Source: [Phormidium] sp. LEGE 05292 (GTDB lineage Bacteria; Cyanobacteriota; Cyanobacteriia; Cyanobacteriales; Aerosakkonemataceae). From it: a stretch of 64,000 bases of DNA. The position numbers and the translations under genes are program-made. The stretch spans positions 1-64,000 of the forward strand of contig NZ_JADEWG010000017.1 of the NCBI RefSeq assembly GCF_015207735.1, in the 5' to 3' direction. The notes beneath the pieces were generated by a model, which saw only the letters and a program-made list of their open reading frames with translations, did no database searches and was not told where the DNA came from. Shown here in pieces: positions 147-52,264 of this stretch (position 1 is its first letter; each line of letters begins with the position of its first letter).

Positions 147-278
147 CTTCCGTAAATCTTTCTCTAGACTAGGCAACTTCTATTTCGGGAAACAGATAAA
201 ACTCGGAAAGTACCTAGCTAACCTAAATTTAGACAGACCGCAGTGGATGCCGATCAGGAATTAGGAGCTAGGTTAATT

Positions 279-1343
279 ATGTGGAAGTTTAATAAATCTT
301 TGCTAAAAAGTTGCCGTTTGGTTGTTCCTATGTTGTTTGCTTTGGCAGGGTTAGGAAGTACTCTGGTTATAACTACTCCTGCTAGGGCGCAGTCGGAAAT
401 TCTCATCAATAGCAACGGTACTCGTATTGATATGACTTTGAATCGTCAGCCTAATGAAAGTTACGAGTCTTTAATTGCTAGGGCACAAACAAATGCAAAA
501 AATGTTTTAACCCGTTCTTTTAATCAAAATCCTTCAGCAAAAAGAGTTTCTGTGACGATTTTGGGTCAAAATGCTGGTCAAGTTGTACCAATTATGTCTT
601 TAAATGTCGATCGCCAAACTTGGGCAAGTGGTCAGAATCTTCAACGCTTGGCTACTTATTTTCCTAATTCGCGATCGCTTCTCGGCTTGAGAACTCCCGC
701 ATCTCCCAACAATAACGTTGCCAATCAACCTCAACCTACAAACGCTGCCTCTGTCGGACAGACACTTCCTAACGGTGTGCGCGTACTTCCCAACGGGATT
801 GTAGTTACTGGAAATGGGACACAGGTACTTCCCAACGGCGTAGTTGTCACTAATAACGGTGGGACACAAGTGCTTCCCAACGGTAACGTTGTATCTGTTA
901 ATGCTGATGTCCAAAATTCCCCAGGTAACGCAGGCTTGCAAGGTTTTACTGGTAATACTGGGGTACAAGGTGTCCCTGGTAATGTGGGCGGACAAAATGC
1001 TGTTGGTAATGCTGGTGTACAAGGTGTTCCCGGAAATAACAATGCCAATGGTACGGTATTGTTCAATAATCCTGGTAGTAACAACTCTGGTGTAAATGGT
1101 CTGAATAATACTACCGGAGTTAACGGTACGATCGGAACTACTGGGGTTAACGGTATCAACGGCACTACCGGAGTTAACGGTACGATCGGAACTACTGGGG
1201 TTAACGGTATCAATGGCACTACTGGGGTTACTGGTACGACCGGAACTACTGGGGTTAACGGTATCAATGGCACTACTGGGGTTACTGGTACGACCGGAAC
1301 TACTGGTGTTAACGGTATCAATGGCACTACTGGTGGACAATGA
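279..1343 (+). CDS. Secreted collagen-like Gly-X-Y repeat protein
   Basis: The product has about 354 residues, counted from the ATG at 279, which has TAGGAG 12 bases upstream. A GTG at 243 would only add a tail before the signal peptide. Residues 1-37 form a typical Sec signal peptide (basic start, hydrophobic core, PARA-QS cleavage site). A globular part of about 110 residues follows, then three LPNG-containing repeats. Next come two Gly-X-Y stretches. The first is a GNA-GLQ-GFT type run with one break. The second is an uninterrupted run of 25 triplets (GVN, GIN, GTT, GTI, GVT) that ends the protein. Thr-rich GTT triplets resemble those of bacterial collagen-like surface proteins such as BclA. 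The function is unknown; an extracellular or cell-surface filament is an inference. Confidence 0.85.
   Translation: MWKFNKSLLKSCRLVVPMLFALAGLGSTLVITTPARAQSEILINSNGTRIDMTLNRQPNESYESLIARAQTNAKNVLTRSFNQNPSAKRVSVTILGQNAGQVVPIMSLNVDRQTWASGQNLQRLATYFPNSRSLLGLRTPASPNNNVANQPQPTNAASVGQTLPNGVRVLPNGIVVTGNGTQVLPNGVVVTNNGGTQVLPNGNVVSVNADVQNSPGNAGLQGFTGNTGVQGVPGNVGGQNAVGNAGVQGVPGNNNANGTVLFNNPGSNNSGVNGLNNTTGVNGTIGTTGVNGINGTTGVNGTIGTTGVNGINGTTGVTGTTGTTGVNGINGTTGVTGTTGTTGVNGINGTTGGQ
1116..1340 (+). repeat. In-frame 27-base tandem repeat encoding collagen-like triplets
   Basis: The 225 bases are built from 27-base units (three Gly-X-Y triplets), often paired into 54-base higher-order units alternating GTI/GIN and GVT/GIN forms. 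The unit length is a multiple of nine, so gain or loss of a unit keeps the Gly periodicity. The array also keeps antisense frames open, which creates long spurious reading frames on the other strand. Confidence 0.9.
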
Positions 1344-6023: not shown

Positions 6024-8204
6024 GTGAATAATCAACAGAAATCTAATTTCCTCACACCTTCTAAGCTGAGCCAATACGAGGAAACTCCACTTATGGAACC
6101 AAAGGAAAACCAGGAAACACCGTTAATAGAAGCAGATTGTACATTAGCCGCTATAGTCTTTACGGATGTAGAGGGATACACTTCCAAAATGGCTGCTAAC
6201 CAAAATCGTACCTTGGCTTTAGTTAACCGCGACTTGCAACTAATGACACGAATCTGTGAACAATTTAAGGGCAGAGTAGTCCAAGATACTGGTGATGGAT
6301 TGTTTATGTACTTTTCTAGTGCGGTAAATGCGGTATCTTGTGCTCAAGAAATTCAAAAAGTAATTTTTAAAACTGCTGCTCAATTGCCGGAAAATAATGT
6401 ACTTAAACATCGAATTGGGATTCATTTAGGAGATGTGGCTCATTTTGTGGGTGGGGAAGTTAAAGGTCATGGTGTAAATATGGCAGCCAGGTTGCAAACA
6501 GCAGCTCAAGCTGGTGGTATTTGTATTTCCCAAACTGTCTATGATGTCGTGAAAAATCGCTTGCCGTTACCGGGAATTTATCGAGAGGTGCGGGAAGTTA
6601 AAGGTATTGAAGAACCTGTTACAGTTTACCAAATTCCGGCTTTAGATATTGAGCAATCAACTAATAAGAAAGTTTTTATTAGTTATCGCAGTCACGATCC
6701 TGATTTGAGTTTAGCTGAAGAATTTTATAGAGCTTTAAAAGCTGCGGGACATGAAGCTTTTATGGCGGGACAAAGTATTCGTTTGGGGGAAGGATGGCCG
6801 CAACGAATTGAGGCAGAATTAAAACAAAGTGATTATTTATTGTTGTTGTTATCTGAGAAGTCTGTAACCAGTGAAATGGTGATTGAGGAGGTGCGGAGGG
6901 CGAAGGAGTTGCGCGATCGCAATTCCAAAGGTAAACCAATAATTTTGCCTATTCGGGTTAAATTTCCCCTCAATTCTCCATTAAATTACAACTTACGAGA
7001 ATATTTAAGTTGTATTCAGCAGCGAGAATGGCATAATCCAGAAGATACTCAGAATATTGTCCAAGAAATTCTGGAAATAGTTACAGAAGGAAGAGCTCAA
7101 GAAGAGACAACAGAAAGTCAAAAACATCCTGTAGCAATATCAGATTCCCAAGCTAAACCTTTGCCTGTAGCTATTCCCGAATTCCCTCAAATTCCTGAAA
7201 TACCAGAAGGTCAAGTAGAGTTAGCTTCAATTTTTTATGTCGAAAGACCACCAATTGAATTAAGATGTTATGAAACGGTTTTACAGCCAGGTTCTTTAAT
7301 TAGAATTAAGGCTCCTAGACAAATGGGTAAAACATCTTTGTTAGCGAGAATTTTACATTATGCGGCAAATTCTGGATTTAATGCGGTTCCTTTAAGTTTT
7401 CAATTAGCTGATGGGAAAGTTTTTACTGATTTGGATAAATTTTTACGCTGGTTTGCTGCTAGTATAGCGAGAAGATTGCGGTTAGCTAATCGGTTGGATG
7501 ATTATTGGGATGAAATTTTTGGCAGTAAAGATAACTGCACTGCTTACTTTGAGGAATATTTATTAGAGAATATCGAAAGTCCCTTAGTTTTGGGATTAGA
7601 TGAAGTGGATTGTGTGTTTCAATATCCAGAAATAGCGGCTGATTTTTTTGGTTTATTACGGGCTTGGCATGAAGATGCTAAAAATCGTGATATTTGGAAA
7701 AAGTTACGACTTTTGGTGGTACATTCAACGGAGGTTTATATCCCAATTAGTATTAATCAATCACCGTTTAATGTAGGCTTACCCATTGAATTACCAGAGT
7801 TTAATCAAGAACAAGTTCAAGATTTAGCTAAGCGTTATGGATTGCAATGGGAGGGGACAGAAGTTGAAAAATTGATGGCTATGGTAGGGGGTCATCCTTA
7901 TTTAATCAGGTTGGCTTTATATCATATTCAACGTGGCGATCTTTCTTTGGATGAATTGTTAGCAATTGCGCCGACAGAAGCAGGACTTTATGCCGATCAT
8001 TTACGCCGACATTTGTGGAATTTGCAACAGCATTCAGAGTTGGCGGGAGGAATTAAAGAGGTGATGAATGCTGATACTCCAGTGCGGTTAGAAGCTTTGT
8101 CAGCGTTTAAATTGCATAGTATGGGTTTAGTATATTTGCAGGGAAATGAATGTACTCCAAGATGCGATCTGTATCGGTTTTATTTGCGCGATCGCTTAGA
8201 TTAA
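6024..8204 (+). CDS. Class III nucleotide cyclase - TIR - AAA-like ATPase fusion
   Basis: The product has 726 residues from the GTG at 6024; an ATG at 6093 with GAGG upstream is an alternative that keeps every domain. Residues about 40-205 form a class III cyclase domain with both metal Asp residues (FTDVEGY, Asp48; DTGDGLF, Asp91) and the transition-state pair Asn152/Arg156 (GVNMAARLQ). The usual base-selecting Lys is Gln87, so the product is uncertain. Residues about 215-350 form a TIR domain (KKVFISYRSHD) with Glu289 at the NADase position (SEMVIEEV). Residues about 400-726 form an AAA-like module with Walker A APRQMGKTS (Lys436) and Walker B LVLGLDEVD. The last two domains are paralogous to those of the gene at 50381-52264. 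A signalling or defence role is inferred. Confidence 0.92.
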   Translation: MNNQQKSNFLTPSKLSQYEETPLMEPKENQETPLIEADCTLAAIVFTDVEGYTSKMAANQNRTLALVNRDLQLMTRICEQFKGRVVQDTGDGLFMYFSSAVNAVSCAQEIQKVIFKTAAQLPENNVLKHRIGIHLGDVAHFVGGEVKGHGVNMAARLQTAAQAGGICISQTVYDVVKNRLPLPGIYREVREVKGIEEPVTVYQIPALDIEQSTNKKVFISYRSHDPDLSLAEEFYRALKAAGHEAFMAGQSIRLGEGWPQRIEAELKQSDYLLLLLSEKSVTSEMVIEEVRRAKELRDRNSKGKPIILPIRVKFPLNSPLNYNLREYLSCIQQREWHNPEDTQNIVQEILEIVTEGRAQEETTESQKHPVAISDSQAKPLPVAIPEFPQIPEIPEGQVELASIFYVERPPIELRCYETVLQPGSLIRIKAPRQMGKTSLLARILHYAANSGFNAVPLSFQLADGKVFTDLDKFLRWFAASIARRLRLANRLDDYWDEIFGSKDNCTAYFEEYLLENIESPLVLGLDEVDCVFQYPEIAADFFGLLRAWHEDAKNRDIWKKLRLLVVHSTEVYIPISINQSPFNVGLPIELPEFNQEQVQDLAKRYGLQWEGTEVEKLMAMVGGHPYLIRLALYHIQRGDLSLDELLAIAPTEAGLYADHLRRHLWNLQQHSELAGGIKEVMNADTPVRLEALSAFKLHSMGLVYLQGNECTPRCDLYRFYLRDRLD

Positions 8205-8290: not shown

Positions 8291-10948
8291 ATGGCTGACT
8301 TAAACTTAAGAAATTCTGCGGATATGTACCAAGTAGGCGGAAGTCTGCCAGTGGACGCTCCCACTTATGTAAAAAGACAGGCAGATGATGAGTTATTTGA
8401 GGCGTTACAAGCGGGGGAATTTTGTTATGTTTTAAACTCGCGACAAATGGGGAAATCGAGTTTGCGAGTGCAAACAATGCGGCGTTTGCAAGAGTCTGGC
8501 GTGGCTTGTGCTGCGATCGATATTACGGCGATCGGTAGTCAGCAAATTACACCGGATCAATGGTATGCAGGACTAATTCAAAGGTTAGTTAATAGTTTTA
8601 GTTTGGCGGCTGATTTTAATTTACGCAGTTGGTGGCGAGAAAGAGATTTATTTTCTCCTGTACAGCGATTTAATGAATTTATTGAACTAGTATTGCTGAG
8701 TCGAATAAATCAAAAAATCGTCATTTTTATCGATGAGATTGATAGTGTTCTGAGTTTAAATTTCCGAGTCGATGATTTTTTTACAGCGATTCGGGCTTGT
8801 TATAATAATCGGGCCGATCGACCAGAATATCAGCGGTTAACTTTTGCACTGTTGGGTGTAGCAACGCCTAATGATTTAATTGATACTAAACACCAAAGTA
8901 CGCCTTTTAATATTGGTCATGCAATTCATCTTTGTGGTTTTCAATTAGCAGACGTAGAACCTTTACTTACAGGCTTTCAGGGAAAAGTTCCCGCGCCTAA
9001 AGTGGTTTTAAAGGAAATTTTAAACTGGACTGGTGGACAACCTTTTTTGACGCAAAAGGTTTGTCGAATTATCCAAAATTATCTCGGTTGTGCAGCAAAT
9101 TTGAATCCGAACAATAAGATTTATAATCAAAAAGATTGGATTAAAAAGATTATTATTTCTCAAGTTATTGAAAATTGGGAAGCACAGGATGAACCGGAAC
9201 ATTTGCGGACAATACGCGATCGCATATTGAGAAGTTGCCAACAACCAGGTAGATTGTTGGGAATTTACCAACAAATTTTGCAGCAAGGCGAGATTTCAGC
9301 GAATAATAATTCAGACCAATTAGAGTTGCAGTTATCGGGATTAGTTGTAAAAAAAGATGGTAAATTAAAAGTTTACAATCGGATTTATGAGTTAGTTTTT
9401 AATCGCCAGTGGGTAGATGAAGCTTTAGCTAATTTACGTCCTTACACAGATGCGATCGTGGCTTGGGAAGCCACAAATAGAAAAGATGAAACATATTTAT
9501 TACGCGGAAAAGCTTTACGAGATGCGTTGGATTGGGCAGCAGATAAAAGCTTAAGTACTCAAGATTTTCAATTTTTAACTGCTAGTCAATCTTTAGAGAC
9601 AAGAGAAATTACTCAAGCGCATCAAAGATTACAAGAAATTCATTCATCTGCTGAAGATAAGGAGCAAATTATTCAAGAAGCAGCAACTATTGACAAAACT
9701 GGAATTAGTGCTTTACGATTATTTGAAAATCAACAAATTGACGGATTATTGTTAGCTTTGCAAGCGGGGCAAGCTTTAAAATTGCTAATTAATGATGAGA
9801 TATCTTTAATAAAATATCCCTGTTTTAGTCCCTTATTAGCTTTAAAGATTATTGTAGAATACATCCGGGAAAAAAACAAATTTTACGGTGATTGGCTAGG
9901 AATTACTTCGATTAAGTTTTCTCCTGACAGCCAGTTTTTGGCAACTGGAGGTCGTAATGGTAAAATCCAAATATGGAGTATTTTAGGTGAAAAATTGATT
10001 GAATTTGTAGCTCATCAAGGAGAAGTTTGGAATGTTAACTTCAGTCCTGATGGGCAGCATTTAGTTACCACAGGAGAGGATGATAGTACTCGAATTTGGC
10101 ATTTATCTGGACAGCAGATCCATCAGTTTGAGCATCATAGCAGTGCAGTAATTGAAGCTAAATTTAGCCCGGATGGTAAAAATTTAGTGACAATTGCTGA
10201 AGATGGAATTAAATTTTGGAATCTCTCAGGACAGCAGATAGCTAACAGAAATATTCATCGAAGTTGGATAAGTACTGTTGGCTTTCACCCAAATGGAGAA
10301 TGTGTTACTGCGGCATTTCGTAATGGGATAGTTCGTTTATGGAAGCGTTTTCAACAACAACCTTTGGAACTGAAAGTTAATCAAACTATTCACGGAAAAA
10401 TTACGGAAATTGCTTTTTGTCCTGATGGACAACGTTTAGTGATGATAGAAAAAAGTAATATTCTACGATTGTGGGACTTTTCTAAACGGCAAATGTTTCA
10501 ATGGCAAACTGAACATAGCGAAATTAAAAGTATCAGTTTTAGCCCTGATGGATTAAATATTGCTACGGCTGGTAAGGATAGTACAATTAAAATTTGGAAT
10601 TTGTCTGGAGAGCTGTTATTACAATTAAATGGTCATCAGGCTACAGTTCGGGATGTTTGCTTTAGTCCAAATGGGAAATATTTAGCAAGCGCAGGTGCAG
10701 ATGGAACGTTCCGAATTTGGGATTTAAGGAAACCTTTGGTGCCATTGTGTAGCCAATATACGAGAGTGTATGGCGTGAGATTGAGTCCTGATGGGCAATA
10801 TTTAACTAGTCGGGGAGAGGATGGTACTATCACTTCTTGGGAAATTGTTAGTTTAAATGAGTTATTAGTAAAAGCTGATGATTGGTTAAGAGATTATCTC
10901 AACAGCCATCCTGAAAAATTAAAAGAAATCGGAGGTGTAACTACATAG
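8291..10948 (+). CDS. AAA-like ATPase with C-terminal WD40 propeller
   Basis: The product has 885 residues. The N-terminal AAA-like domain (PF14516 type) begins [15 protein letters not shown], with Walker [10 protein letters not shown] (Lys55) and Walker [12 protein letters not shown] (about 144-154). A winged-helix-like region with GGQPFLTQK and [12 protein letters not shown] follows. After a linker, about eight WD40 repeats (FSPDG...IATAG.D..I.IW pattern) occupy about residues 540-860. The tail [16 protein letters not shown] is shared with the two downstream paralogs. There is no transmembrane segment, unlike those paralogs. The arrangement resembles STAND-type switches, where the propeller acts as sensor; that role is inferred. 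It lies 86 bases after the cyclase-TIR gene and 71 before the next, so co-transcription is plausible. Confidence 0.93.
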
Positions 10949-15409: not shown

Positions 15410-18400
15410 ATGACTTCTGGAGATAATTCAGTATATTATTATCAAGTAGGTGGCAGCCTGCCAATTGATGCTCCTACTTATGTTAGGCGACAAGCAGATG
15501 ATGACTTATACAATGGTTTGATATTCGGTGAGTTTTGCTATGTACTAAACTCTCGGCAAATGGGTAAATCTAGCTTACGGGTGCAGACAATGCAACGGTT
15601 ACAAGCTGATGGAATTGCTTGTGCGGCGATCGATATTACTGCGATTGGTACTTCTGAGATTACCTCTGAACAATGGTATGCTGGAGTAATTGATTATTTA
15701 GTGAATGGTTTTGAGCTTTATAACTGTTTCGATTTAGAAGAATGGTGGACATTTCATAATTTACTCTCGCCTGTACAAAAGTTTAGTAAATTTTTGGGAG
15801 AAATCCTCCTGCAAGCTATTGATAAAAAAATTGTAATTTTTGTTGATGAAATTGATAGCGTATTGGCTTTACCATTTAATATAAATGACTTTTTTGCAGT
15901 GATCCGTGACTGTTTCAACCAACGAGCAGATAAACCAGATTATAACCGTTTAACTTTTGCTTTAATTGGAGTAGCAACACCTGCAGATTTGATAAGTGAC
16001 CGTCGCCGTACTCCGTTTAATATTGGTCGCGCTATTGAATTAACTGGTTTTCAATTAGCTGAAGCACAACCTTTAGCATTAGGGTTAGCCAATAAAGTCG
16101 AAAATTTCCAATCAATGCTAGAAGCGGTGTTATTTTGGACTGGCGGACAACCATTTTTAACGCAAAAAATTTGTAAATTAATCCACAAGGATTTAAATTG
16201 CGAATTAATCAAGAATCCTTATGAATGGGTAGCAAATTTGGTACTAGAGAGGGTTATCAAGAATTGGGAAACGCAGGATGAGCCGGAACACTTGAAGACC
16301 ATTAAAACTCGGATTCTTCGCAATAAAAAATATGCCAGTTCTATGTTAGCAATTTATCAACAAATATTGTTAAAAGAGAGTATTATAGCTGATGATAGCT
16401 CTGAACAAATGGATTTACGTCTGTCTGGTTTAGTAGTCAAGCAGCAAGGACAATTAAAAGTTTATAACCATATTTATGAAGCAGTTTTTAATCTAAAATG
16501 GGTTGAAAAAGAATTAGAAAATTTGCGTCCTTACGCAGAAAATTTGGCAGCTTGGTTAGTTTCAGGCTGCCAGGATGACTCCCGTTTGTTAAGGGGACAA
16601 GCATTAGAAGATGCACTGGCTTGGTGTGTAGATAAAAATTTGAGTAATCAAGATTATCAGTTTTTAGCTGCGAGTCAAAATTTAAAGAGTCGAGAATTGC
16701 AACAGGTATTAGAAGCAGAAAGAAAAGCTTTTGAAGCGGAAAGGAAAGCTGAACAAGTCAAAAGAGATTTAGAAGCAGAAAGAAAAGCTAAGGAGTTAGC
16801 ACAACAGGAGATTCAGATACTAACAGAAGCGCAAAAAAAAGCCAGCAAGATAATTCGTACAGGTTTTGTAGGATTAGCTTTAACTACAGCTTGTGCGATC
16901 GCGATCGCTTTTTGGGGAGGTAGAATTTTTGAACAAGCTAAAGAAGAAGCCAAACAAGCAATAGAAGGTACAAAACTAGAACAATCATCTGCCAACACTT
17001 TGCGACAATTTAACAGCGAACAATTAGAAGTTTTAATATCAGCAATAAACTCAGGAAACCGCTTAAAAGAAATCAGTAAATCTTCTCATTTATGGGAGAA
17101 ATATCCTGCATTCAGTCCTGTATCAACTCTCCAAGAAATTTTAGGTAATATTTCTGAACAAAATTATTTTAATATTCATTCAGGTCGAGTTTTTAGCGTT
17201 ACTTTTAGTCCTAACGGACAGTATATAGCAACTACAGCAGAAGATGGAATTATCGAAATTTTAGACCTTTCTGGCAAAAAAATTATAAAATTTATCAGTC
17301 ATAGTCATAAGCCTGTACGGAGTGTGAATTTTAGTCCCGATAGCAAATATATTGCAACGGCGGGAGAAGATGGAACGGCGCGAATTTGGGATTTATCAGG
17401 TAAACAATTAGTCGAATTAAAAGGACACAAAGGAGAAGTTTGGAGTGTCAGTTTTAGTCGAGATGGTAAGCGTGTTGTGACTGCGGGAGAAGATGGAACA
17501 GCGAGAATTTGGGATTTATCAGGTAAACAATTAGTGGAATTAAAAGGACACAAAAGCTCTATTTGGAATGCAATTTTTAGCCCAGATGACAAATATATTG
17601 CTACTGCTGGGAAAGATGGAACAGCAAGAATTTGGCAGCGATCGGGAAGAGAAATTAAGAAGTTAATAGGACATCAAGGATCTGTCATTAGTCTTAGTTT
17701 TGATCCAAATGGACAACGCTTAGTCACTACTGGAGAAGATGGAATTGTTCGACTTTGGAATCTTGCCAAAAAATCATTCGGACAACCTTTAGCAAAATGG
17801 AGAAATAGCCGAGATGCTGTATTAAATATTAGTTTCAGTCCTGATGGAAAATTCTTAGCAACTGCCGGAGTTGATGGGAAAGCTAGGCTGTGGAGCATAT
17901 CTGGACAATTATTAGCAGAATTACCTAGTCATCAAAAACGGGTGGAAAGTCTCAGTTTTAGTCCTAATAAAAAAATCATCGCCACAGCAGGTGCAGATGG
18001 GAAAGTGCGAATTTGGAACTGGGAATGGCCTTTGAAAAGTTCGCGGCAATTAATATCAAGTTGGCAAGGACATAGTGCAGAAGTTTGGAGTGTTAATTTT
18101 AGCCCTGATGGAAAGTATTTTGCTTCGGCTGGAAAAGATGGTATAGCTAAAGTTTGGGACTTACAAGGCAAAAAATTAGCTGAATTTAAGTGTCATAAAG
18201 ATGGAATTAATACTGTAGTTTTTAGTCGAAATGGCAAGTTGTTAGCTACAGCAGGAAATGACTATCAAGTGAAATTATGGAGTTGGGAATCAAAAAGGTT
18301 AGTGCGATCGCTAATTCATCCCGATAGAGTTTACAGTACTAGTTTTAGTTTCGATAATAAAAACATCTCTACAGCGGGAAAAGATGGCATTGTTCGCCTC

Positions 18401-19003
18401 TGGAAAATTTCCGCAGCACAGCCACCTATTCTACTTCTAGGACATCAAGATTCAGTTAATAGCGTTACTTTTAGTCCCCAAGGAGAATACATCGCTTCAG
18501 CCGGAAAAGATGGTACTATTCGACTTTGGAATTTATCGGGAAAACAGTTGATGAAAATTAATGGTCATGAAGGCGAAGTTTTAAGTATTAACTTTAGTCC
18601 AGATGGTCATTATTTAGTCAGTACCGGAACTGATACGACAATTCGCGTTTGGAACTTGTCTGGTAAAGAATTAAATAAGTTTACTACTGGTCAGGGCGGA
18701 GTATTGAATGCTACTTTTAGCCGAGATGGTCAGCTATTGGCTACTGCTGGACAGGACGGAACAACACAGTTATGGTTGCCATCAGGACAGCTAATTGCCC
18801 AATTTAACGGTCACGAAGGTAGAGTTTACAGTGTCAGTTTTAGCCCTAATGGAAAATACTTAATCACTGCGGGAAGAGATGGTACAGTCAAGCGTTGGCG
18901 CGTGGAAGGATTAGACGAATTGCTGAAGCGAAGTTGCTTATGGTTAAAAGATTACTTTGTCACTCATCCGAAAGCAGCCCGTATTTGTGTAAAAATTCCC
19001 TAA
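15410..19003 (+). CDS. Membrane-anchored AAA-like ATPase with 14 WD40 repeats (paralog B)
   Basis: The product has 1197 residues with the same order as paralog A. The AAA-like domain has Walker [10 protein letters not shown] and Walker [13 protein letters not shown] charged coiled-coil insert built on repeated EAERKA units (about 427-475) is absent from paralog A. A transmembrane helix follows at about 481-506, then 14 WD40 repeats and the tail [19 protein letters not shown]. The region around 18012-18070 is essentially base-for-base identical to 13555-13613, and the last 100 bases of both genes are nearly identical, which points to recent duplication or gene conversion. It ends in a stem-loop shared with the convergent ureC. 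The function is unknown; a sensor-switch role is inferred from the architecture. Confidence 0.93.
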
Positions 19004-19054: not shown

Positions 19055-20779
19055 TTAAAACAAAAAGTAACGTTGCGCCATAGGTAAAACTGTTGCAGGT
19101 TCACAAGTTAATAACTCTCCATCTGCCCTAACTTGATAGGTTTCTGGATCGACTTCTATTTGCGGTAAAGCATCGTTTAATTTCAAATCTCGCTTGGTAA
19201 TTTGGCGAGTTCCTGATACTGCGATCGCACTTTTTTGTAATTTCAACTGTGCGGGAATTTCTCTTTCTAATGCTGCTTGGGAAACAAAAGTAAATGATGT
19301 TGCCGCGATCGCACCACCAAAACTAGCAAACATCGGGCGAGTATGCACAGGTTGAGGTGTGGGAATGCTGGCGTTAGCATCACCCATTTGAGCATAAGCG
19401 ATCGCACCACCTTTAATCACAATCTCTGGTTTTACGCCAAAAAATGCAGGTTTCCAAAGACACAAATCTGCTAATTTCCCTTCTTCTATTGAACCAACAA
19501 ATTGAGCAATTCCGTGAGTAATTGCGGGATTAATAGTATATTTAGCTACATACCTCTTTACCCTGAAGTTGTCTGCTCTCTCCTGCATTTCTCCTTGTGA
19601 TGTAGGGGAGAGAATTCCTCTTTGCACTTTCATTTTATGGGCGGTTTGCCAAGTGCGAATAATTACTTCGCCTACTCTTCCCATTGCTTGCGAGTCGGAA
19701 GAAATCATGCTGAATGCGCCCAAGTCGTGCAAAATGTCTTCCGCTGCGATCGTTTCCCGACGAATGCGCGACTCGGCAAAGGCAACATCTTCGGGAATGC
19801 TGGGGGAAAGGTGATGGCACACCATCAGCATATCTAAGTGTTCTTCCAGAGTGTTCAATGTGTAAGGTCGAGTCGGGTTGGTGGAAGAAGGTAGCACATT
19901 TAACTCGCCGCACACTTTAATGATGTCGGGTGCGTGCCCTCCGCCTGCGCCTTCGGTGTGGTAAGTGTGGATGGCGCGATTTTTGAAGGCGGCGATCGTA
20001 GCTTCGACAAATCCAGCTTCGTTGAGAGTATCAGTATGAATTGCTACTTGTACGTCGTATTTGTCCGCCACACTGAGGCAAGTATCAATTGTTGCTGGTG
20101 TGGTTCCCCAGTCTTCATGCAGTTTTAACCCCATTGCGCCAGCAAATACTTGTTCTTCCAATCCTTCCGGCTTGCTGCTGTTGCCTTTGCCCAAAAATCC
20201 CAAGTTGACGGGGAAGGCATCGGCGGCTTGCAACATTCGGTACATATTCCAGGGGCCAGGGGTGCAAGTGGTAGCATTTGTCCCAGTGGCAGGGCCAGTT
20301 CCACCGCCGATCATTGTGGTAATTCCTGATGCGATCGCAGTTTCGATTTGTTGCGGGCAAATAAAGTGTATGTGTGAATCTATACCACCTGCGGTCAGTA
20401 CCATGCCTTCCCCGGCTAAAACTTCGGTTCCGGGGCCAATAATAATATTTACATTGTCTTGAATATAAGGATTTCCGGCTTTACCAATTTTGTAAATTTT
20501 GCCATCTTTAATGCCAATATCTGCTTTAATAATTCCCCACCAATCAACGATTAAAGCATTAGTAATTACCAAATCAACGGCTCCATCACTGTTAGAAATT
20601 GGTGATTGTCCCATGCCATCTCTGATTACTTTACCGCCGCCAAATTTGACTTCATCGCCGTAGGTTGTCAGGTCTTGTTCTACTTCAATAAATAATTCTG
20701 TGTCGGCTAAACGAATGCGATCGCCCACAGTTGGCCCGTATGTTTCCGCATAAGCCCGCCGATCCATTCTATAACTCAT
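19055..20779 (-). CDS. ureC: Urease alpha subunit (catalytic)
   Basis: The product has 574 residues, full length for bacterial UreC. The enzyme hydrolyses urea to ammonia and carbamate at a dinuclear nickel centre in the cytosol. Visible nickel ligands are His136/His138 (DSHIHF), carbamylated Lys219 ([10 protein letters not shown]), His248 ([11 protein letters not shown]) and His274 ([14 protein letters not shown]). The flap Cys lies in [13 protein letters not shown]. The start [20 protein letters not shown] is canonical and has AGGAGA upstream. It is the last gene of a - strand run and lies 9 bases after the DUF1349 gene. The accessory genes ureE, ureF and ureG are not in this window. Confidence 0.99.
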
Positions 20780-21774: not shown

Positions 21775-23199
21775 TTAATAAACCACTTCAAAAACTTTGA
21801 TAGCTTCTTTTTTACCTTTGAGTTGTATCGTGCCAAATTCCTTAAATTCAAATAAATTTTCTGTAGCTTCATAGATGCTTTGGGTGATGAGTATCTGTTC
21901 CCCTTTAGCGATCGATTGTAACCTAGATGCTATATTTACTTTATCTCCTATGGCTGTGTAATCCATGTGTTGAGGAGAGCCAATGTTTCCCACAACTACT
22001 TCTCCTGAACTTAAGCCAATTCCTGTAATAAAATTCTTTCTAATCCAGGGAACTGAAATATTTTTAATTCGGTTTTGCATCCTAATTGCTGTTTCAATAG
22101 CCCGCCGTTCATTATCAACAAGCGTTGAAGGTGCGCCAAACATCGCTACAATCATATCTCCTACAAATTTGTTAACTGTACCGCCTTGTTCAAATATAAC
22201 CTCAACCATATTAGTTAAATATTCATTTAAATATTCTACAATGGCTTCCGGTGCTAATTCTTCACATTTAGTTGTAAAATTTCTAATATCAGAAAAAAGA
22301 ATGGAGATATTCTTGTTAGCTGGAGCTAAAGAAATATATCCTTTGCTATGTAAAATAGCTTGAACAACTTGTGCGGGGATATACCGCTCTAGATTACTTT
22401 TAATTCGTTCTTCTTTTAGTTTATTTTCATGTAAGAGGGCATTTTCGATCGCAGATGCAGCCTGAGATGCCACAGCAGTAAAAAGTTTTAAGTCATGGGC
22501 TGTATAATTAACTAATTCCTCATTACTGATCGTAAGTATTCCGAGTACTGCATCCTGTGTTTTGAGTGGAGCGCAAATTAAAGATTTTACTTGATTAGCA
22601 CCCCTAACAAATCTCGGATCGGACTCTACATCATTAACTATCTCTGCTATTCCTGTTAAAAATATGTTTCCAGCTATGCCTTCACCAGGAAGTAAAATTG
22701 TTTTATGGTGATATTCCTTACCACAGGCAGCTATGATTTCTAAATTTCCGGTTTTTTCCGAAAGTAGCATCGCTGATGCACTTGTTGATTTAATGATTTT
22801 TGTGGCTTCTTCGATCGCTAATTTGGCAACTTCTTTAAGCACCAGACAAGCTGTAAATTTTTCGGAAATATTATAGAGAAGGTTGATTTCTTTATATTTA
22901 TCTAAAGTTTCCCGTGCTAATATTTTTTTTTGTAACTCTTCATTAGCTAAGTAGCTAAGAAGTTGGGCAATTGTTGATGCTTTTTCATCGCCAACTACCC
23001 AGCCGATTATTTCTTTTTCAACAGTTACAGGGTATTTATTAAATTCGCTATTACTTACTTCACCCCATAATAAATTTCCTCCCCGGTCTTGAATACTGAT
23101 GGGAGCGCCTAGAGCTTGATTGATGTTACTTAAAATTACTGAAAACTCTTTTTTAAGAAGTAGCTTCTTCAGACTAATCTGAATCATATTTTTTTCCAT
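21775..23199 (-). CDS. GAF-domain adenylate cyclase (class III)
   Basis: The product has 474 residues. A GAF domain occupies about residues 105-260 ([15 protein letters not shown] to [13 protein letters not shown]). The C-terminal class III cyclase domain has metal-binding [10 protein letters not shown] and [12 protein letters not shown], the adenine-selecting Lys in that motif, the [16 protein letters not shown] segment with Asp/Thr, and the catalytic Asn and Arg. All key residues for cAMP synthesis are present, in contrast to the cyclase at 6024. The start overlaps the 3' end of the hybrid kinase gene by 26 bases, so translation is coupled. It is probably controlled by that kinase or by a ligand of its GAF domain. 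Confidence 0.93.
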
Positions 23200-33691: not shown

Positions 33692-36600
33692 ATGTTAATT
33701 ATCTCTCAAATGAGTACAATATCAGATTACGAAATAATCGAAAAAATTCATATAGGAATCCGAACTTTAATCGAACGTGGAGTTCGGAAATCAGACCGGG
33801 TGCCAGTCATTATCAAAAGCCTCAAATCGGAATATCCTACATTAGAAGAAATTGCGCGATTAAAACATGAATATAAAATTAACTCCAGCCTTTTCAATGT
33901 AGAGGGAATTGTTAAGACTTATGGATTATTAAAATATAAGAATGGTTTTGCTCTCATATTAGAAGATTTTCAAGGTAAATCGCTTAAGCAATTGCTTGCC
34001 GATCGCCTCCTACAAGTTATAGATTTTCTGAACATCGCTATCAAACTAGCGCAATCTTTGGGCGAATTGCATCAAAACCAAATAATTCATAAAGATATTA
34101 AATCAGCCAACATCATCGTCAACCCGAAAACAAGCCAAGTCAAAATTACAGATTTTAGTATTTCCACGCGCCTAACAAGAGAAACCAATCAGATTGGAAG
34201 TCCCTGTTTACTAGAAGGGACTCTTGCTTATATGTCGCCAGAACAAACTGGGCGAATGAATCGGTCAATTGATTATCGCACGGACTTTTATTCTTTAGGT
34301 ATTACCTACTATGAAATGCTCACGGGTCAGCTGCCTTTTAATGCGATCGACCCACTAGAATTAATTCACTGCCATATAGCTCTCACACCAGTTCCACCCC
34401 ATCAAATAAATCCAGAAATTCCAGAGGCGATTTCATCTATTGTGATGAAACTTTTACAAAAAAACGCTGAAGATAGATACCAAAGTGCTTTTGGACTAAA
34501 AGCTGACCTAGAAACTTGCCTACTTGAGTTACAAAAAACTAGTAAAATTGAAAACTTTACACCCGGACAACTAGATCAGTTTGGCAAATTTTTGATTCCG
34601 CAAAAACTTTACGGTCGCTCTCAGGAAGTTACCTTATTAATGCAAGCTTTTGAGCGAGTTAGCAAGGGCGCAACCGAAATGATATTAGTTTCTGGTTATT
34701 CGGGAATTGGTAAAACTGCGCTAGTAAATGAAGTTCACAAACCGATCGTACAAAAACGCGGTTATTTTATCGCAGGCAAATTCGATCAGTTTAAGCGCAA
34801 CATTCCTTACGCTGCCCTAATCCAAGCTTTCCAATCATTATTAAGGCAAATATTAACCGAAGGTTCAGATCAGATAGAGATTTGGAAACAAAAACTTTTA
34901 AGCACGCTGGGCGAACAAGGTCAAATTATTATCGATATTATACCGGAATTAGAACTTATTATTGGCTCTCAACCTGCTGTTCCTCAACTGTCGTTGCCGC
35001 TGGAATCTCAAAACCGATTTAATAAAGTATTTAAAGAATTTCTTGGCGTATTTACCAAAGCCGAACATCCATTAGTGCTATTCCTAGATGACCTCCAGTG
35101 GGCAGATCCAGCGTCTTTGAAATTAATCAAAATCTGGGTAACTGATCCAGAGAGTAAATATTTATTGATGATGGGAGCTTATCGAGATAACGAAGTTTCT
35201 CCAATTCACCCTACTATTCAGACGATCGATAAAATCAAAGAAAATGGCGCGACAGTTAATCAACTGATACTTCAACCTTTAGATATTAATAACGTCAGCC
35301 AATTATTAGCCGACACGCTATCATTTGGAAAACCTTTTGAACTGTGGGACGAAATAGAAAAATTAAAGCCACTTAAATCAGAAATAAGTTCTTTAGCATC
35401 TCTACTTTTTCATAAAACAGGCGGCAACCCTTTCTTTTTGACCCAATTAATGCAAACGCTATATTCTGAAAATTTGTTAAAATTCGACTTTATTAAAGGT
35501 CGCTGGTTTTGGAATGTTGCCCAAATACAATCCTTGGGAATCATTGATTACAATATTGTCGAACTGGTAGCTAAAAATATCCAAAAACTGTCGGATAGAA
35601 CACAGCACGCCTTAAAATTAGCAGCTTGTATTGGCAACCAATTTAACTTAGATGTCCTGGCGATCGTTAATCAGCAATCTTTGTTAACTACTGCTGATGA
35701 TTTATGGGAAGGACTTCAGACAGGTTTGATTCTGCCTCTCAATAGTGCTTACAAAATTCCCTTAGTATTTGACGATCAAGAAAGAGAAACCCAAGAGCGA
35801 ATACTCGACTGGGGAAATCAGGAAGGCGTTTTTCACTCGCCCATTTCTTACAAATTTTTGCATGACAGAGTTCAGCAAGCAGCTTATTCACTCATACCGG
35901 AAGAGCAAAAAAAAGCTACTCACCTAAAAATTGGTAAATTGTTACTACAGAAAACATCAGCTCATGCCTTATTAGAAAATATTTTCGATATTGTCAACCA
36001 ATTAAATATAAGTGCGGAACTAATCAACAATCCCTCAGAACGAAAAGATCTTGCTAAATTAAACCTTTTAGCTGGAAAAAAAGCTAAAGCAGCAACAGCC
36101 TATGAAGCAGCATTTAAGTATTTAAGTATTGGCTTAGAACAACTAACAGAAAAGGATTGGGAAAACCAGTACGATTTGACGATCGAACTTTATTTAGAAT
36201 CTTTAGAAATTGGTTATATAGTTAATCCTCAACAGGCAGTAAAGATTTTTCATACTATTCTGAATCATGCTCAAAAGCGGCTGGAAAAAGTCAAAGTATA
36301 TGAAATTCAGAGCAAATTTTATTTTTCTCAAAACCAACCTGTTCCCGCATTAGAAACTAGCTTAAAAGCATTGAAAATATTAGGCATAAATCTGCCTTCT
36401 CAACCGAATAAATTTAATGTATTAGCTAGTTTAATTAAGACAAAATTGCGGCAAGGAAATAAATCAATTGAAGCATTAGCTTCTCTGCCAGAAATGACAG
36501 ATGATGAACTCCTTGCAGCTATGCGGATATTATTAGCTCTCAGTCCGGCTGCCTTTGCCGTAAGACCGAATCTTTATCCGCTAGTAACTTTTAAAATGGT

Positions 36601-46826: not shown

Positions 46827-49800
46827 TTATTGATGGTTTTCTGCTAAATAACCTTTCAATTTTTCCAAAAGCTTAGAATTTTGCAGGGTTACTCCCACTT
46901 GATTATTGAAAATTTGCATATATTTTTCATCACTTTCATCAAAACTCGTTTGAAATTGATTTGGTACTTCTAGATCGTAAGCTAGTGAGAATTCCGAAAA
47001 ATCTCCGGTTTTTCTTTTGTTAATTAATTGGCTGACAGCAATCAAATCACCATCAGGGTTAAATACTGGCATACATAGTAAACTGCAAGTACGATAACCT
47101 GTTTGTTGATCGGTTTTTCGAGCGGTTTCTGAGTCTGGGTGATTGTACAAATCAAAGGGAATATTTATTAGTTTTTTGGTTTGGGCAACTTTGCCTGCGT
47201 AACCTTGTCCCACTTTAATTTTGATTTCTTTAAAGGAACCATCTTCAAAGAGGATTTCTGTCCATAATTCTCGTTCATCATTATCTAATAACCAGAGGGT
47301 ACTGCGATCGGCATTAGTCAGTTTTTTCGCTTCTTCCATTACCCTTTGCAGAATTTCTTTAATCTCCATGCTACCGTTACTAACAGTGCGTGTAGCAGCA
47401 ATTAAAGCCGCCGCTACTCGTTGTCCCCGCGCTGTTTTATGATAGGAACGGAAACTTTCTAAAACTATTTTGATTTCTTGAGCATCTTTAAGCAATCGTT
47501 GTTCATCAGCAGTATTAAAGCCTTGTCGATCAATCTTTTCTGCTAAAGGCTTACTTTTAGCAATTCCCGACTTTAATTTATTAAGTAATTGCACTACTGC
47601 CACTAAATTTCCCTGCTCATTTAACAGCGGATAAGTTAACATTGTATAAGTACGATAATTGTTCTTTTTATCTTGTTCTTTGGCTGTAGTCGATCGAGGA
47701 TCGTCATAAAAATCGAAGGGAATATTAATTACTTTTTTATGGGCTGCTACTTCACCAAGAATACCTTTATTCGTGGGAATGCGAATTTCCAGAAATTCGT
47801 CACTATCTGATTCAGCAACAATTGACCAAAATTCATTCTTTTCTTCATCTAATAAAAAGATGCTAGTGCGATCGGCATTTAATGACCTCCCCATTTTTAA
47901 GGTAATTCTGCGTAAAATGGAATCAATAATTTCATCACAACCTTGAATATCCATAACGCTAGTGAGTACAGCTAAAGCTTGCGTCACCACGTTATTCGGC
48001 TGATTTTTTAACTCTTCTTTTAACGCCTCAAATTTCTTCGCATTATGCAATGCTACACCAGCTTGCTCGTTAAATGTTTTCATCGATTTTTGATCTTGAG
48101 AATCGAAACTAGCTTGAAAACATTCTGGTGCTTGAGGCCAATCATTTGGGTTATATTTAGGGAACTCACCCAGTCTTTTTTTGTTAATTAATTGGGTAAC
48201 ACCAAGTAATTCTCCATCTGGGCTAAAAACTGGCATACATAGTAAACTACAAGTCCGATATCCAGTTTTTTCATCTGTGTTTTTAGCGGTTGCAGAATCG
48301 GGGTGTTTGTAAAGATCGAAAGGGATATTTAAAGGTTTGGCTGTTTGAGCAACTTTACCAGCAAAACCTTGTCCAACCTGCACTCTAATTTCTTTAATTT
48401 CGCCATTTTCAAAGGGAATTTTTGTCCAAAGTTCATTTTTTTCTTGATCTAAAAGCCAGAGGGTGCTGCGATCGGCATTCATCAACTTTTTTGCCTCTTC
48501 CATAACTCTAGTTAAAGTAGCTTCTGAGTCTAAACTACTTTGCGAAAGAGATACTGTAGCTTCTGTTAAAGCCTTTAATGCTTGGACTTTTTGGGTTTGT
48601 TTATAAAACAATTGGCACTTTTGCAAAATTTGGCGAATTTTTGGTGCATATTCTGCAAATTGTTTTTCATCTATTTCAGTAAAACCTTGGCGATCGATTC
48701 TTTCTGATAACGAAGCGCACGGATTATTATGTGCTTTAAGCTTATTAATTAATTGAACAACTGTAACTACATCTTTATGTTCATTAAATAGTGGTATGAC
48801 TAGCCTATTGTATATGGGATAGTAAGTTTTTTCTTTACTTAAATCTGGAAAAATATTAATGTTTTCCTCGCCAAATTTAAATGGCTGATTAATCAGTTTT
48901 TTAAAGTTACTAACTATACTTTCAGTTTGTTGATTAACATTAATTTCTAATTCTGGTTGCTGGCTATACCTATCTGTAGCAGTAATTGACCAAAGTTCTT
49001 GGTTCTCTTCATCAATGAAAAAAATTCTGGTGCATTCAGCATTCATTAATTCACCTAATTTTTTGGTGATTGAACCGAGGATTTCTTTTAGAATAAATTC
49101 AAAAGCTTTACCTTCCATTGCATCTAACATAGAAAGTAATTTTTGCTCTTGAGCTTCAACAACTTGGATAAAATCTGCTTGTAATTCAGCTAAAGCTTTG
49201 CCAACCCAGATATGGTGAAATATCTCTGCATAAATGCGGTTACAAATTTTTAATTTTCCCTGGTGTTTAACTACTAGACCAGAAAGACGTAATTCTATTT
49301 GTTCTGTACTTTCATCGGCTATAACTTCTTCTTCCCGCAACACTTTTTGATAAATATTTAATAGCGATCGCGACCTTTTACTAATTGTCAATAACCGATC
49401 TCTAATCGTTCTTAAATGCGGTGGTTCATCCCCGGCTTCCCAATTTTCAATTAAACGCGATCGCACCAACTGTTGGACAAACTCTTCTTCTTCATTCGCG
49501 GGAATATCAGCTTCCCAACAATGAATTAAATTACACAGTTTTTGCGTGAGAAATGGTTGTCCTCCCGTCCAATCCAATACAGCTTTTAATATAGCTTGGG
49601 AATGATGCACTTTATTTGCTAAACCTTCAGCTAAAGGCCCAATTTCTCCTAATTGAAAGCCATGTAATTCAATCGCACGCCCAATATTAAAAGGTGTCGT
49701 TTTTTTGTCTTGAATTAAATCCGATGGCGTGGCTACTCCAAGTAAAGCAAAAGTAATTCGGTTGTCTGGTTCATTACAAGAACGAATATAAGCAAAAAAA

Positions 49801-50279
49801 TTATCTGTGGGAAAGTTGAGGTTAAGAACGCTATCAATTTCATCAATAAAAATAACAATTTTTTGATTAACTGATTCTAGAAGTACTTGTTCTATGAATT
49901 CGCTTAATCGGTGGACAGGTGTGAGAAAAGCACGATCGCGCAACCAACTTTGTAAATTAATTTTTTCTACTAATTGAAAGCTGGTTAATAGCCGCCGCAT
50001 GATTCCCGCATACCATTGATCCGGCGTAATATCTTGACTACCAATTTTATTTAAATCAATTGCTGCACAGGCGAAACCTTTTGCTTGTAATTTGTGCATT
50101 GTTCGCACTCTCAAGCTAGTTTTACCCATCTGTCGGGAATTCAAAACATAACAGAAATCGCCAGCTTTTAAACCTTCATAAAGTTCTCGATCGGCTTGTC
50201 GTACAACATAACTGGGTGCATCTAAAGGTAAATGTCCGCCCACTTTATAAGTGAAAGTCGAATTTTGTGTTGTAATCAT
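46827..50279 (-). CDS. AAA-like ATPase with four NKFDE-type GAF domains
   Basis: The product has 1150 residues. The AAA-like domain (about 12-370) starts [20 protein letters not shown], with Walker [10 protein letters not shown] (Lys53) and Walker [12 protein letters not shown]. It is the same core as in the three AAA-WD40 proteins. Four GAF domains follow, at about 385-550, 575-750, 775-935 and 960-1135. Each has an NK pair and a downstream F-x3-D-[EQ] (INKLK...FTEIDE; INKKR...FDSQDQ; LNKLK...FNTADE; INKRK...FDESDE). This is the NKFDE pattern of cyclic-nucleotide-binding GAF domains in phosphodiesterases and cyanobacterial CyaB1. cAMP or cGMP sensing is inferred. It lies about 100 bases downstream of the HTH-TIR-AAA gene on the same strand. 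Confidence 0.92.
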
Positions 50280-50380: not shown

Positions 50381-52264
50381 TCATAAGCGGTCGCGAAAAT
50401 AAAGTTTGTATAAATTAAATCTCGGAATTACTTGATTTCCCTGAAATTTTACCAAGCCCATACTATGTAATTTAAATGCTGGCACAGATTCCAATTCTAT
50501 GGGTGTGTCCGCCGTCACTACTTGAGCAAAAGCATCTGCCAATTCTGGATGCTGTTGCAAACTCCATAAATGTCTTCGCAAATGGTCATTATAAAGACCC
50601 GCCTCTGTAGGTGCAGTTTCTAAGAGTTTTTCTAAGGTAATTTCGTTTTGAGAAATTCGATAAAGTGCTAATCTAATTAAATAAGGATGCCCTCCTACTA
50701 AAGTCATTAATTGCTCAATCTTATTGGTCTGCCAATTTAATTGATGTCGATCGATTAAAACCTGTATCTGATTAAAATTAAACTCCGGCAATTCAATGGG
50801 CAAGCCGACATTAAACGGGGATTGGTTAACGTTTAAAGGTATATAAACTTCAGTGGAATGTACTACTACTAAACGCAATTTTCCCCAAAGATTGCTATCA
50901 CCACTGCCATACCCAGCTTCCTCAAACCAAGCACGTAGTAACCCAAAAAAATCATCAGCAATTTTTGGGTATTGGAAAATGCGATCGACTTCATCCAAAC
51001 CTAAAACTAAGGCACTATTAGCTGCTGGTAACAAATAATCTTCAAAATAAATTGTGCAATTATCCTTACTACCATAAGTATCTGTCCAGAACTTATCTAG
51101 CTGAGAAGCTAAACCTAATTTGCGCGAAATTATCGCACAAAACCATCTTAAGAGTTGATTTAAATCCGTAAAAATTTCTGTATCTGCTAACTGAAAACTC
51201 AAGGGAACTGTACGGTAACTTAATTTTTCTTCTGCATGATACAAAAGCCTCGCCATTAAAGATGTTTTGCCCATTTGTCTGGGTGCTTTAATCCGAATTA
51301 ACGCCCCAGGTTGAGAAATAGCTGAATAACACTGATTTTCACAAGGAACTCTTTCGACATAAAAAGCTGAAGCTAGGCGCACTTGTCCGCTGGGTATTTC
51401 TGGTTCTGCTACTGGTAAAGGAATTCCAGGCGTAACTTTGTAAGTAGATGGGGGTTTAGAGTTCTCCCATTTGACTACTTTTCCTGATAATAAACTATTG
51501 ATTTCTTCCAGTAAATAAGGCGTATCACTAGGAGAATTCCACTCGCGTTGTCTGACTTCGGCTAAATAGCCACGTAAATCATGATTTAAAATAGTATTAG
51601 CTGGGCACTTTACCCGAATAGTTAATAATGTTAGCTGATGATTTCGCTGGCGATCGCGCAACTCCCGCACCCGCCGCAAAATTTCTATCACCATTTCACT
51701 TACAGCAGATTCGGGAGATAACAATAGCAGAAAATAATCGGATTGTTGCAACTTATGATTAATATCAGCAAACCAATCTGCCTCAGCTTGATAAGAATTA
51801 GAATTTACTTCTACCGCATTGTGAAAACTGAGAGGAAACTTGTATGATTGTCCGCCTAATTGTGCGATCGATCGCTCTAACTCCGTTGCTAAATTAGCAT
51901 CAGGTTGCTGATGATGGTAACTAATAAAAAAAGTCTTAGCTGCACCTATACTTGGCAAAAAAAACTTATTTTCTAAACTTGATCCAGTTAGTTCTAACTG
52001 AGAATTTTTTGCTTTAAATGCTCTAGTTATTGCACCTTGCAAAGTTTTTTTCTTTACTTCTTCACCTAATACTTGAGATAACTTTCTCCATAACCTATAT
52101 GCAACATCCTTTTCCACATATTCAGGATTTTCAGGATGAATCTTGTCATAAGTTAGTCCTGACCAAGAACCAATAAATACCTTTCTTTCCAAATCATTCA
52201 AATACTTTCCTGCATCATCATAGACTAACTTATCAACAAATTCCAAAGCTTGCTCAACTTCCAT
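50381..52264 (-). CDS. HTH - TIR - AAA-like ATPase
   Basis: The product has 627 residues. Residues 1-80 form a helix-turn-helix-like N-terminal domain of the type found in cyanobacterial vWA-MoxR-associated proteins (NDLERKVFIGSWSGLTYDKI, then YRLWRKLSQVLGEEVKKKTL). Residues about 108-255 form a TIR domain (AKTFFISYHHQQPD). The position of the NADase Glu is Ile195 (SEMVIEIL), with Glu194 one residue before. Residues about 298-627 form an AAA-like module with APRQMGKTS (Lys333) and LVLGLDEVDRIF. The TIR-AAA part is closely paralogous to that of 6024-8204, with the cyclase replaced by the HTH. It is divergent from the HD gene. Confidence 0.9.
   Translation of the reverse strand: MEVEQALEFVDKLVYDDAGKYLNDLERKVFIGSWSGLTYDKIHPENPEYVEKDVAYRLWRKLSQVLGEEVKKKTLQGAITRAFKAKNSQLELTGSSLENKFFLPSIGAAKTFFISYHHQQPDANLATELERSIAQLGGQSYKFPLSFHNAVEVNSNSYQAEADWFADINHKLQQSDYFLLLLSPESAVSEMVIEILRRVRELRDRQRNHQLTLLTIRVKCPANTILNHDLRGYLAEVRQREWNSPSDTPYLLEEINSLLSGKVVKWENSKPPSTYKVTPGIPLPVAEPEIPSGQVRLASAFYVERVPCENQCYSAISQPGALIRIKAPRQMGKTSLMARLLYHAEEKLSYRTVPLSFQLADTEIFTDLNQLLRWFCAIISRKLGLASQLDKFWTDTYGSKDNCTIYFEDYLLPAANSALVLGLDEVDRIFQYPKIADDFFGLLRAWFEEAGYGSGDSNLWGKLRLVVVHSTEVYIPLNVNQSPFNVGLPIELPEFNFNQIQVLIDRHQLNWQTNKIEQLMTLVGGHPYLIRLALYRISQNEITLEKLLETAPTEAGLYNDHLRRHLWSLQQHPELADAFAQVVTADTPIELESVPAFKLHSMGLVKFQGNQVIPRFNLYKLYFRDRL

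Follow-up and report, generated by a model that had tools for sequence, protein, structure and literature searches.

The window analysed here is a 64,000-nucleotide stretch of [Phormidium] sp. LEGE 05292, a cyanobacterium with a 7.5-Mb genome that apparently belongs to the same family as Argonema antarcticum. Gene A of this window is an open frame of 726 residues, free of internal stops, in which a class III nucleotide cyclase, a TIR domain and an AAA_35 ATPase follow one another (Table 1). Pfam places Guanylate_cyc at residues 43-204 (E 2.9e-12), TIR_2 at 217-336 (1.2e-19) and AAA_35 at 394-722 (1.1e-154). The frame is counted from a GTG, although the start codon is uncertain and may also be the ATG at residue 24. 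An initial annotation had proposed that a cyclase with both metal Asp residues, a TIR domain with the NADase Glu and a P-loop ATPase share this chain; open frame, Pfam and a residue census confirmed it, and the numbering of D48, Q87, D91 and E289 proved correct. None of the models of NCBIfam and PADLOC names the protein, and promoter and terminator scans gave results at chance level.

Table 1. Genes and domains of the two A/B loci in the window
Feature	Coordinates	Strand	Evidence
Gene A, class III cyclase - TIR - AAA_35 (STAND-type)	6024..8204	+	Open frame, Pfam, orthologues
Class III nucleotide cyclase domain, residues 37-210	6132..6653	+	Pfam, PDB match, fold match, residue census
TIR domain, residues 213-360, catalytic-type E289	6660..7103	+	Pfam, fold match, E289 conservation
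AAA_35 STAND-type NTPase, residues 391-726	7194..8201	+	Pfam, CED-4 and Apaf-1 alignment
Gene B1, diverged partner-type AAA_35 with C-terminal WD40, 885 aa, 86 bp downstream of gene A	8291..10948	+	Pfam
Gene B2, AAA_35-WD40, 1174 aa	11020..14544	+	Pfam; 91% orthologue in L139
Gene B3, AAA_35-WD40, 1197 aa, paralogue of B2 (70% aa identity)	15410..19003	+	Sequence comparison
Second B-type gene, AAA_35 with three GAF domains	46827..50279	-	Pfam
Second A-type gene, N-terminus of about 110 aa - TIR - AAA_35, Ile for the catalytic Glu	50381..52264	-	Sequence

The two genes listed last form the second A/B pair of the window. DNA identity between B2 and B3 is 86% over the WD40 half but about 71-75% over the NTPase half, a pattern that would be expected from exchange or conversion of the former. 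The window also holds a separate GAF-class III cyclase about 3 kb past the end of B3 (21775-23199, minus strand), a 1876-residue hybrid of protein kinase, AAA_16, GAF and histidine kinase (33692-39322, plus strand) and a low-complexity protein built of TTGVNGINGTTGV repeats, whose gene (243-1343, plus strand) is open on both strands.

The cyclase domain has both metal-binding Asp residues (D48 and D91) and the transition-state pair N152/R156, and the metal Asp and Asn/Arg positions are invariant in the census of fusion proteins. Among solved structures, 3mr7 (E 4e-24) and Ma1120 are the nearest to it in sequence. A model of the whole chain is confident for TIR and AAA_35 and leaves the cyclase unfolded (pLDDT mostly below 60), because just three aligned rows covered the cyclase. 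A separate model of residues 33-213, of modest quality (three aligned rows, pLDDT 65, pTM 0.69), repaired the fold. The match of residues 40-205 to class III cyclases had been set beforehand as the point on which the cyclase assignment could fall; the best 50 PDB entries for this model were class III cyclases only (Z 18.1 to 14.8), headed by 3mr7 (Z 18.1) and Ma1120 (Z 18.0).

The base-selecting pocket is different from that of canonical adenylyl cyclases, which have Lys plus Asp or Thr, in that Q87/E145 replaces the Lys/Asp pair. Every relative examined beyond the window's family keeps Lys/Asp, apart from those halves of tandem cyclases that have lost the metal Asp or the Arg and form a case of their own. 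Family members have Q/E (window, L122), A/Q (Argonema, L123) or S/S (L125) at these positions, and D88 and K147 are newly fixed. As read from these alignments, Gln87 arose within the window's family, paired with the change of Asp to Glu145. Seven of the 19 family-specific changes fall in the pocket stretches 84-95 and 142-148, with a hypergeometric P of about 0.001 that is indicative only, since the stretches were picked after Q87 had been seen.

The replacement of the base-selecting Lys by Gln87 was described correctly in the initial annotation, but its suggestion that the product may not be cAMP does not follow from Gln87 alone. Rv0386 of Mycobacterium has Gln at the same position and makes cAMP. 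The K101E/D157G variant of Ma1120 stays an efficient adenylyl cyclase, with a kcat/Km for ATP of 1.9 against 1.25 in the wild type (PMC4215837), so that loss of the Lys does not exclude cAMP. A bolder view would be that the family has re-tooled its pocket for another base or nucleotide, so that NAD cleavage and the release of a cyclic nucleotide other than cAMP would come from one NLR-like assembly. It would build on the loss of Lys87 and Asp145, the fixation of Asp88 and Lys147 and the resulting reversal of charges, and we hold it to be speculative and rather unlikely. The coupled change of the pocket does make the base choice of this cyclase directly testable.

The same losses could be read in another way, namely that the cyclase is a non-catalytic module for dimerisation or nucleotide sensing and the TIR domain the only effector. 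The window's family has lost both base-selecting residues, and cyclases with degenerate sites are found C-terminal to AAA_35 in other architectures (L156, L157). However, the invariance of the metal Asp and Asn/Arg residues is at odds with such a role, and so is selection. Between the window gene and its 90% identical same-genus orthologue, dN/dS is 0.086 for the cyclase, 0.085 for the TIR and 0.091 for the AAA domain (most other pairs were saturated and were left out of the selection analysis); purifying selection is thus equal across the chain and the cyclase is not decaying.

Tandem cyclases of the subfamily also speak for catalysis. In L081 (5396-8032) two cyclase domains precede TIR-AAA_35. 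The first keeps both metal Asp residues and has lost the Arg, and the second has lost both metal Asp residues (to A and Y) and keeps the Lys, Asp, Asn and Arg. The split is more complete in L155 (1-4044), a tandem cyclase from the same genome that is distantly related (42% identity). Mammalian adenylyl cyclases divide labour between their C1 and C2 domains in this manner, and the complementary loss in L081 and L155 is a bacterial parallel. It would be hard to explain unless domain pairing and catalysis were under selection in the subfamily, and a purely structural cyclase in gene A appears to us quite improbable.

The predicted TIR fold matches the TIR domains of RPS4, SPARTA and SARM1 (Z 13-15), and E289, not the neighbouring E288, corresponds to the invariant TIR Glu across all fusion-protein rows. 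By sequence and model, then, the domain has the fold and the Glu of TIR NADases, and NAD cleavage is its predicted activity. In a whole TIR-AAA_35 clade of Microcoleus, Tychonema and relatives (L030-L048), the catalytic Glu is replaced by Gln (TYQVQQAKE). This suggests a conserved TIR domain without NADase activity in that clade, and the Microcoleus case implies that a TIR can persist without NADase chemistry.

The third domain had initially been called an AAA-like ATPase. Its P-loop stands, with conserved Walker A (KAPRQMGKTS) and Walker B (VLGLDEVDCV) motifs, and alignments to CED-4 and RPP1 make a STAND switch the better description. In the predicted structure, AAA_35 residues 376-726 align with CED-4 109-469 (Z 16.9, rmsd 4.4); Apaf-1 (Z 14.5), Dark and NLR resistosomes also match. 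TIR and AAA_35 together match RPP1 over 427 residues (Z 17.1); the rmsd of 16 presumably reflects a different placement of the two domains. PABY2304 matches the P-loop domain at Z 19.4, and equally good scores (Z 19-15) are reached by archaeal ATPases (2qen, 2fna) and by ORC/Cdc6 proteins, for which reason we speak of a STAND/ORC-type fold. The TIR domain in front and the swappable effectors described below favour the STAND reading over the ORC type. With its NB-ARC/NACHT-like fold, winged helix and Walker motifs, the ATPase is classified here, from sequence and predicted structure, as an NLR/apoptosome-type STAND switch, and it probably controls both enzymes.

A search for the same domain order, which the initial annotation had proposed, showed that gene A is no single oddity. 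In two overlapping samples, one of 390 genomes from the class and one of 245 from the order (with the best candidates per genome scored, so that counts are lower bounds), cyclase-TIR-AAA_35 was found in at least 25 genes of at least 22 genomes, all cyanobacterial, and one further gene (L087) has the permuted order TIR-AAA_35-cyclase. Viral contigs, scanned twice with cyclase queries, yielded no relatives. A chance fusion or assembly artefact was considered and rejected, given the 90% identical orthologue and the recurrence of the order in 22 genomes. The arrangement is real, old and recurrent.

In the TIR-AAA_35 tree, 20 fusion rows form a single clade (SH-aLRT 97), and L055, L081, L082 and L087 fall outside it, alone or among caspase, CHAT or trypsin forms. 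A single clade for all 24 fusion rows was rejected (p-AU 6.6e-6, log-likelihood difference 70) in what is a quick tree with L082 as a long branch. By this phylogeny, the cyclase joined the TIR-AAA_35 chassis more than once. The slot it occupies may instead hold a caspase (L062), CHAT (L061, L066, L080), trypsin (L059) or a Sigma70_r4-type HTH (L002), or be empty (L075). To judge from these architectures, cyclase, caspase, CHAT, trypsin and HTH in one slot look like exchangeable effectors of the usual kind. Elsewhere, cyclases of this subfamily are fused to NACHT (L083), nSTAND1-WD40 (L085) and protein kinases (L088, L090). Among other AAA_35 proteins, L158 (3069-6005, minus strand) joins a B-type AAA_35 to a cyclase, whose first metal Asp is Asn, and CHASE2, and two genes of the window's genome (L113, 4301-5914, and L117, 9197-11122, both minus strand) combine AAA_35 with a C-terminal degenerate GGDEF (QRQEF and QEDEF).

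At 18 of the 24 loci with known context, gene B with its diverged AAA_35 is the same-strand neighbour of the fusion gene (16 downstream, two upstream); it lies on the opposite strand at one locus and is missing at five (L029, L091, L145, L146, L149). Four of the same-strand pairs have overlapping frames. Of all 52 A-type genes examined, 35 are followed by B on the same strand at a distance of up to 2.5 kb, nine of them with overlapping frames. As the window's own genome holds about eleven B genes, adjacency by chance would be far below 1%. The C-termini of B proteins vary and include WD40, TPR, TPR-CHAT, FHA, GAF and histidine kinase modules.

The reading that we favour, with a probability of roughly 0.55, is that gene A is the executor of a modular two-gene NLR-like STAND system, in which clustering starts cyclase and TIR in parallel and B is the sensor. 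AAA_35 would act as an ATP-driven oligomerisation switch, with the N-terminal cyclase and TIR as its two enzymatic outputs. Since no sensor domain follows the winged-helix region in the chain of gene A, sensing is assigned to the partner, which with its diverged AAA_35 and WD40 repeats (elsewhere TPR, FHA, GAF or histidine kinase) most likely perceives the trigger. The activated executor would then cluster upon ATP exchange. In class III cyclases the active sites lie where two domains meet in a dimer, and TIR NADases need assembly; clustering could pair the cyclase domains into active dimers and assemble the TIR domains into an NAD-cleaving form, so that both activities begin together. The likely outcome would be a stress or anti-phage response ending in growth arrest or cell death. 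The analysis itself shows the domains with their catalytic residues and folds, the swapping of modules, the pairing of genes and the selection on the cyclase; that the two enzymes are active, that clustering triggers them, that B senses and what the cell gains are inferred. An immune role is plausible by analogy with the systems of PMC7159879 and PMC8195603.

Several observations count against an executor, among them the five fusion loci without B and the genomic context. The neighbours of fusion genes are diverse and mostly housekeeping, PADLOC matches among them are mostly generic and kinase-like, and neither clear defence genes, a defence island nor a recurrent cNMP-binding effector was seen among them. 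Where the window's family carries the cassette, it is flanked by ureC (19055-20779) on one side and by a response-regulator/kinase plus an aldehyde dehydrogenase on the other; four members have the same flanks and lack the cassette, and the family inherits the locus at one fixed site. This stability outside a defence island, the GAF, FHA and histidine kinase modules of partner proteins, the HTH or GGDEF-like domains of A-type paralogues in the same genome and the absence of the catalytic Glu from some related TIR domains, such as those kept in the Microcoleus clade, would also fit ordinary signal transduction. Gene A would then encode a multidomain regulator whose cyclase makes cAMP as a messenger and whose TIR domain is a protein-protein interaction module. 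Such a module would not be expected to keep Glu289 invariant in all fusion rows or to show a dN/dS equal to that of the other domains, and the caspase, CHAT and trypsin-type peptidases found in the same slot suit execution better. We regard ordinary signalling as possible, if somewhat unlikely.

The coupling of a cyclic-nucleotide signal to NAD consumption, raised in the initial annotation, found no direct support. Its most specific form, that the cyclase product binds and activates the TIR domain of the same or a neighbouring chain, has a precedent in Pycsar, where the product of a class III cyclase activates a TIR effector (PMC11224242). Pycsar TIR effectors, however, use a cyclic-nucleotide-binding domain, and Pfam finds none in the chain of gene A or in B1 and B2, nor is such a family among the commonest of the 61 neighbouring proteins. 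TIR-AAA_35 moreover works with other N-terminal modules or with none. We therefore give this link very little credence; parallel activation by clustering is the simpler explanation.

Gene A resembles Pycsar (PycC plus PycTIR) in linking a class III cyclase with a TIR effector. Pycsar differs in its separate proteins, its cNMP-binding effector and the base-selecting residues of PycC; gene A does not qualify as Pycsar, and PADLOC PycC matches here are weak (E 3e-8 to 2e-4). As for the cyclase itself, the mycobacterial-type Ma1120 and Rv1900c, together with 3mr7, are the best structural and sequence matches and share the metal-binding positions. Unlike them, gene A has Gln/Glu for the Lys/Asp pair and is fused to TIR-STAND.

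A further comparison is with the NTP-dependent conflict systems of the VMAP ternary and related types (Kaur et al. 2020, PMC7159879; 2021 follow-up, PMC8195603), in which cNMP cyclases and TIR domains are alternative nucleotide-signal domains at the N-terminus; a "Npun2340/2341" STAND family is named in PMC8195603. Shared features are a variable N-terminal slot for trypsin, caspase, cNMP cyclase or TIR, regulation by an NTPase and enrichment in multicellular prokaryotes, including cyanobacteria. The VMAP core, in contrast, consists of MoxR, vWA and VMAP-C, whereas the cassette described here is a pair of AAA_35 proteins; Pfam found no VMAP, MoxR or vWA domains in the A and B proteins, and these are not among the commonest families of the 61 neighbours. 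The enzymatic domains of VMAP proteins are reported to be strongly mutually exclusive, whereas gene A carries cyclase and TIR in one chain. No description of the cyclase-TIR-AAA_35 combination was found in the open-access literature, in agreement with the initial annotation. Gene A thus joins the known NLR-like, effector-swapping systems with a cyclase plus TIR order for which we found no earlier description. If the proposed mechanism is true, one NLR-like switch governs two chemically different nucleotide signals, which the earlier survey of related systems had found to be nearly mutually exclusive.

With RPP1, CED-4 and Apaf-1, gene A shares a TIR plus NB-ARC-like fold, but its TIR chain lacks LRR or WD40 repeats, has an additional cyclase, belongs to a two-gene arrangement and is only about 10-13% identical to them. 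The WD40 repeats on the partner STAND protein resemble the Apaf-1/Dark layout. The series of cyclase, caspase, CHAT, trypsin and HTH forms on a TIR-STAND chassis, together with a WD40 STAND partner, provides a test set for the wiring of bacterial apoptosome-like pairs.
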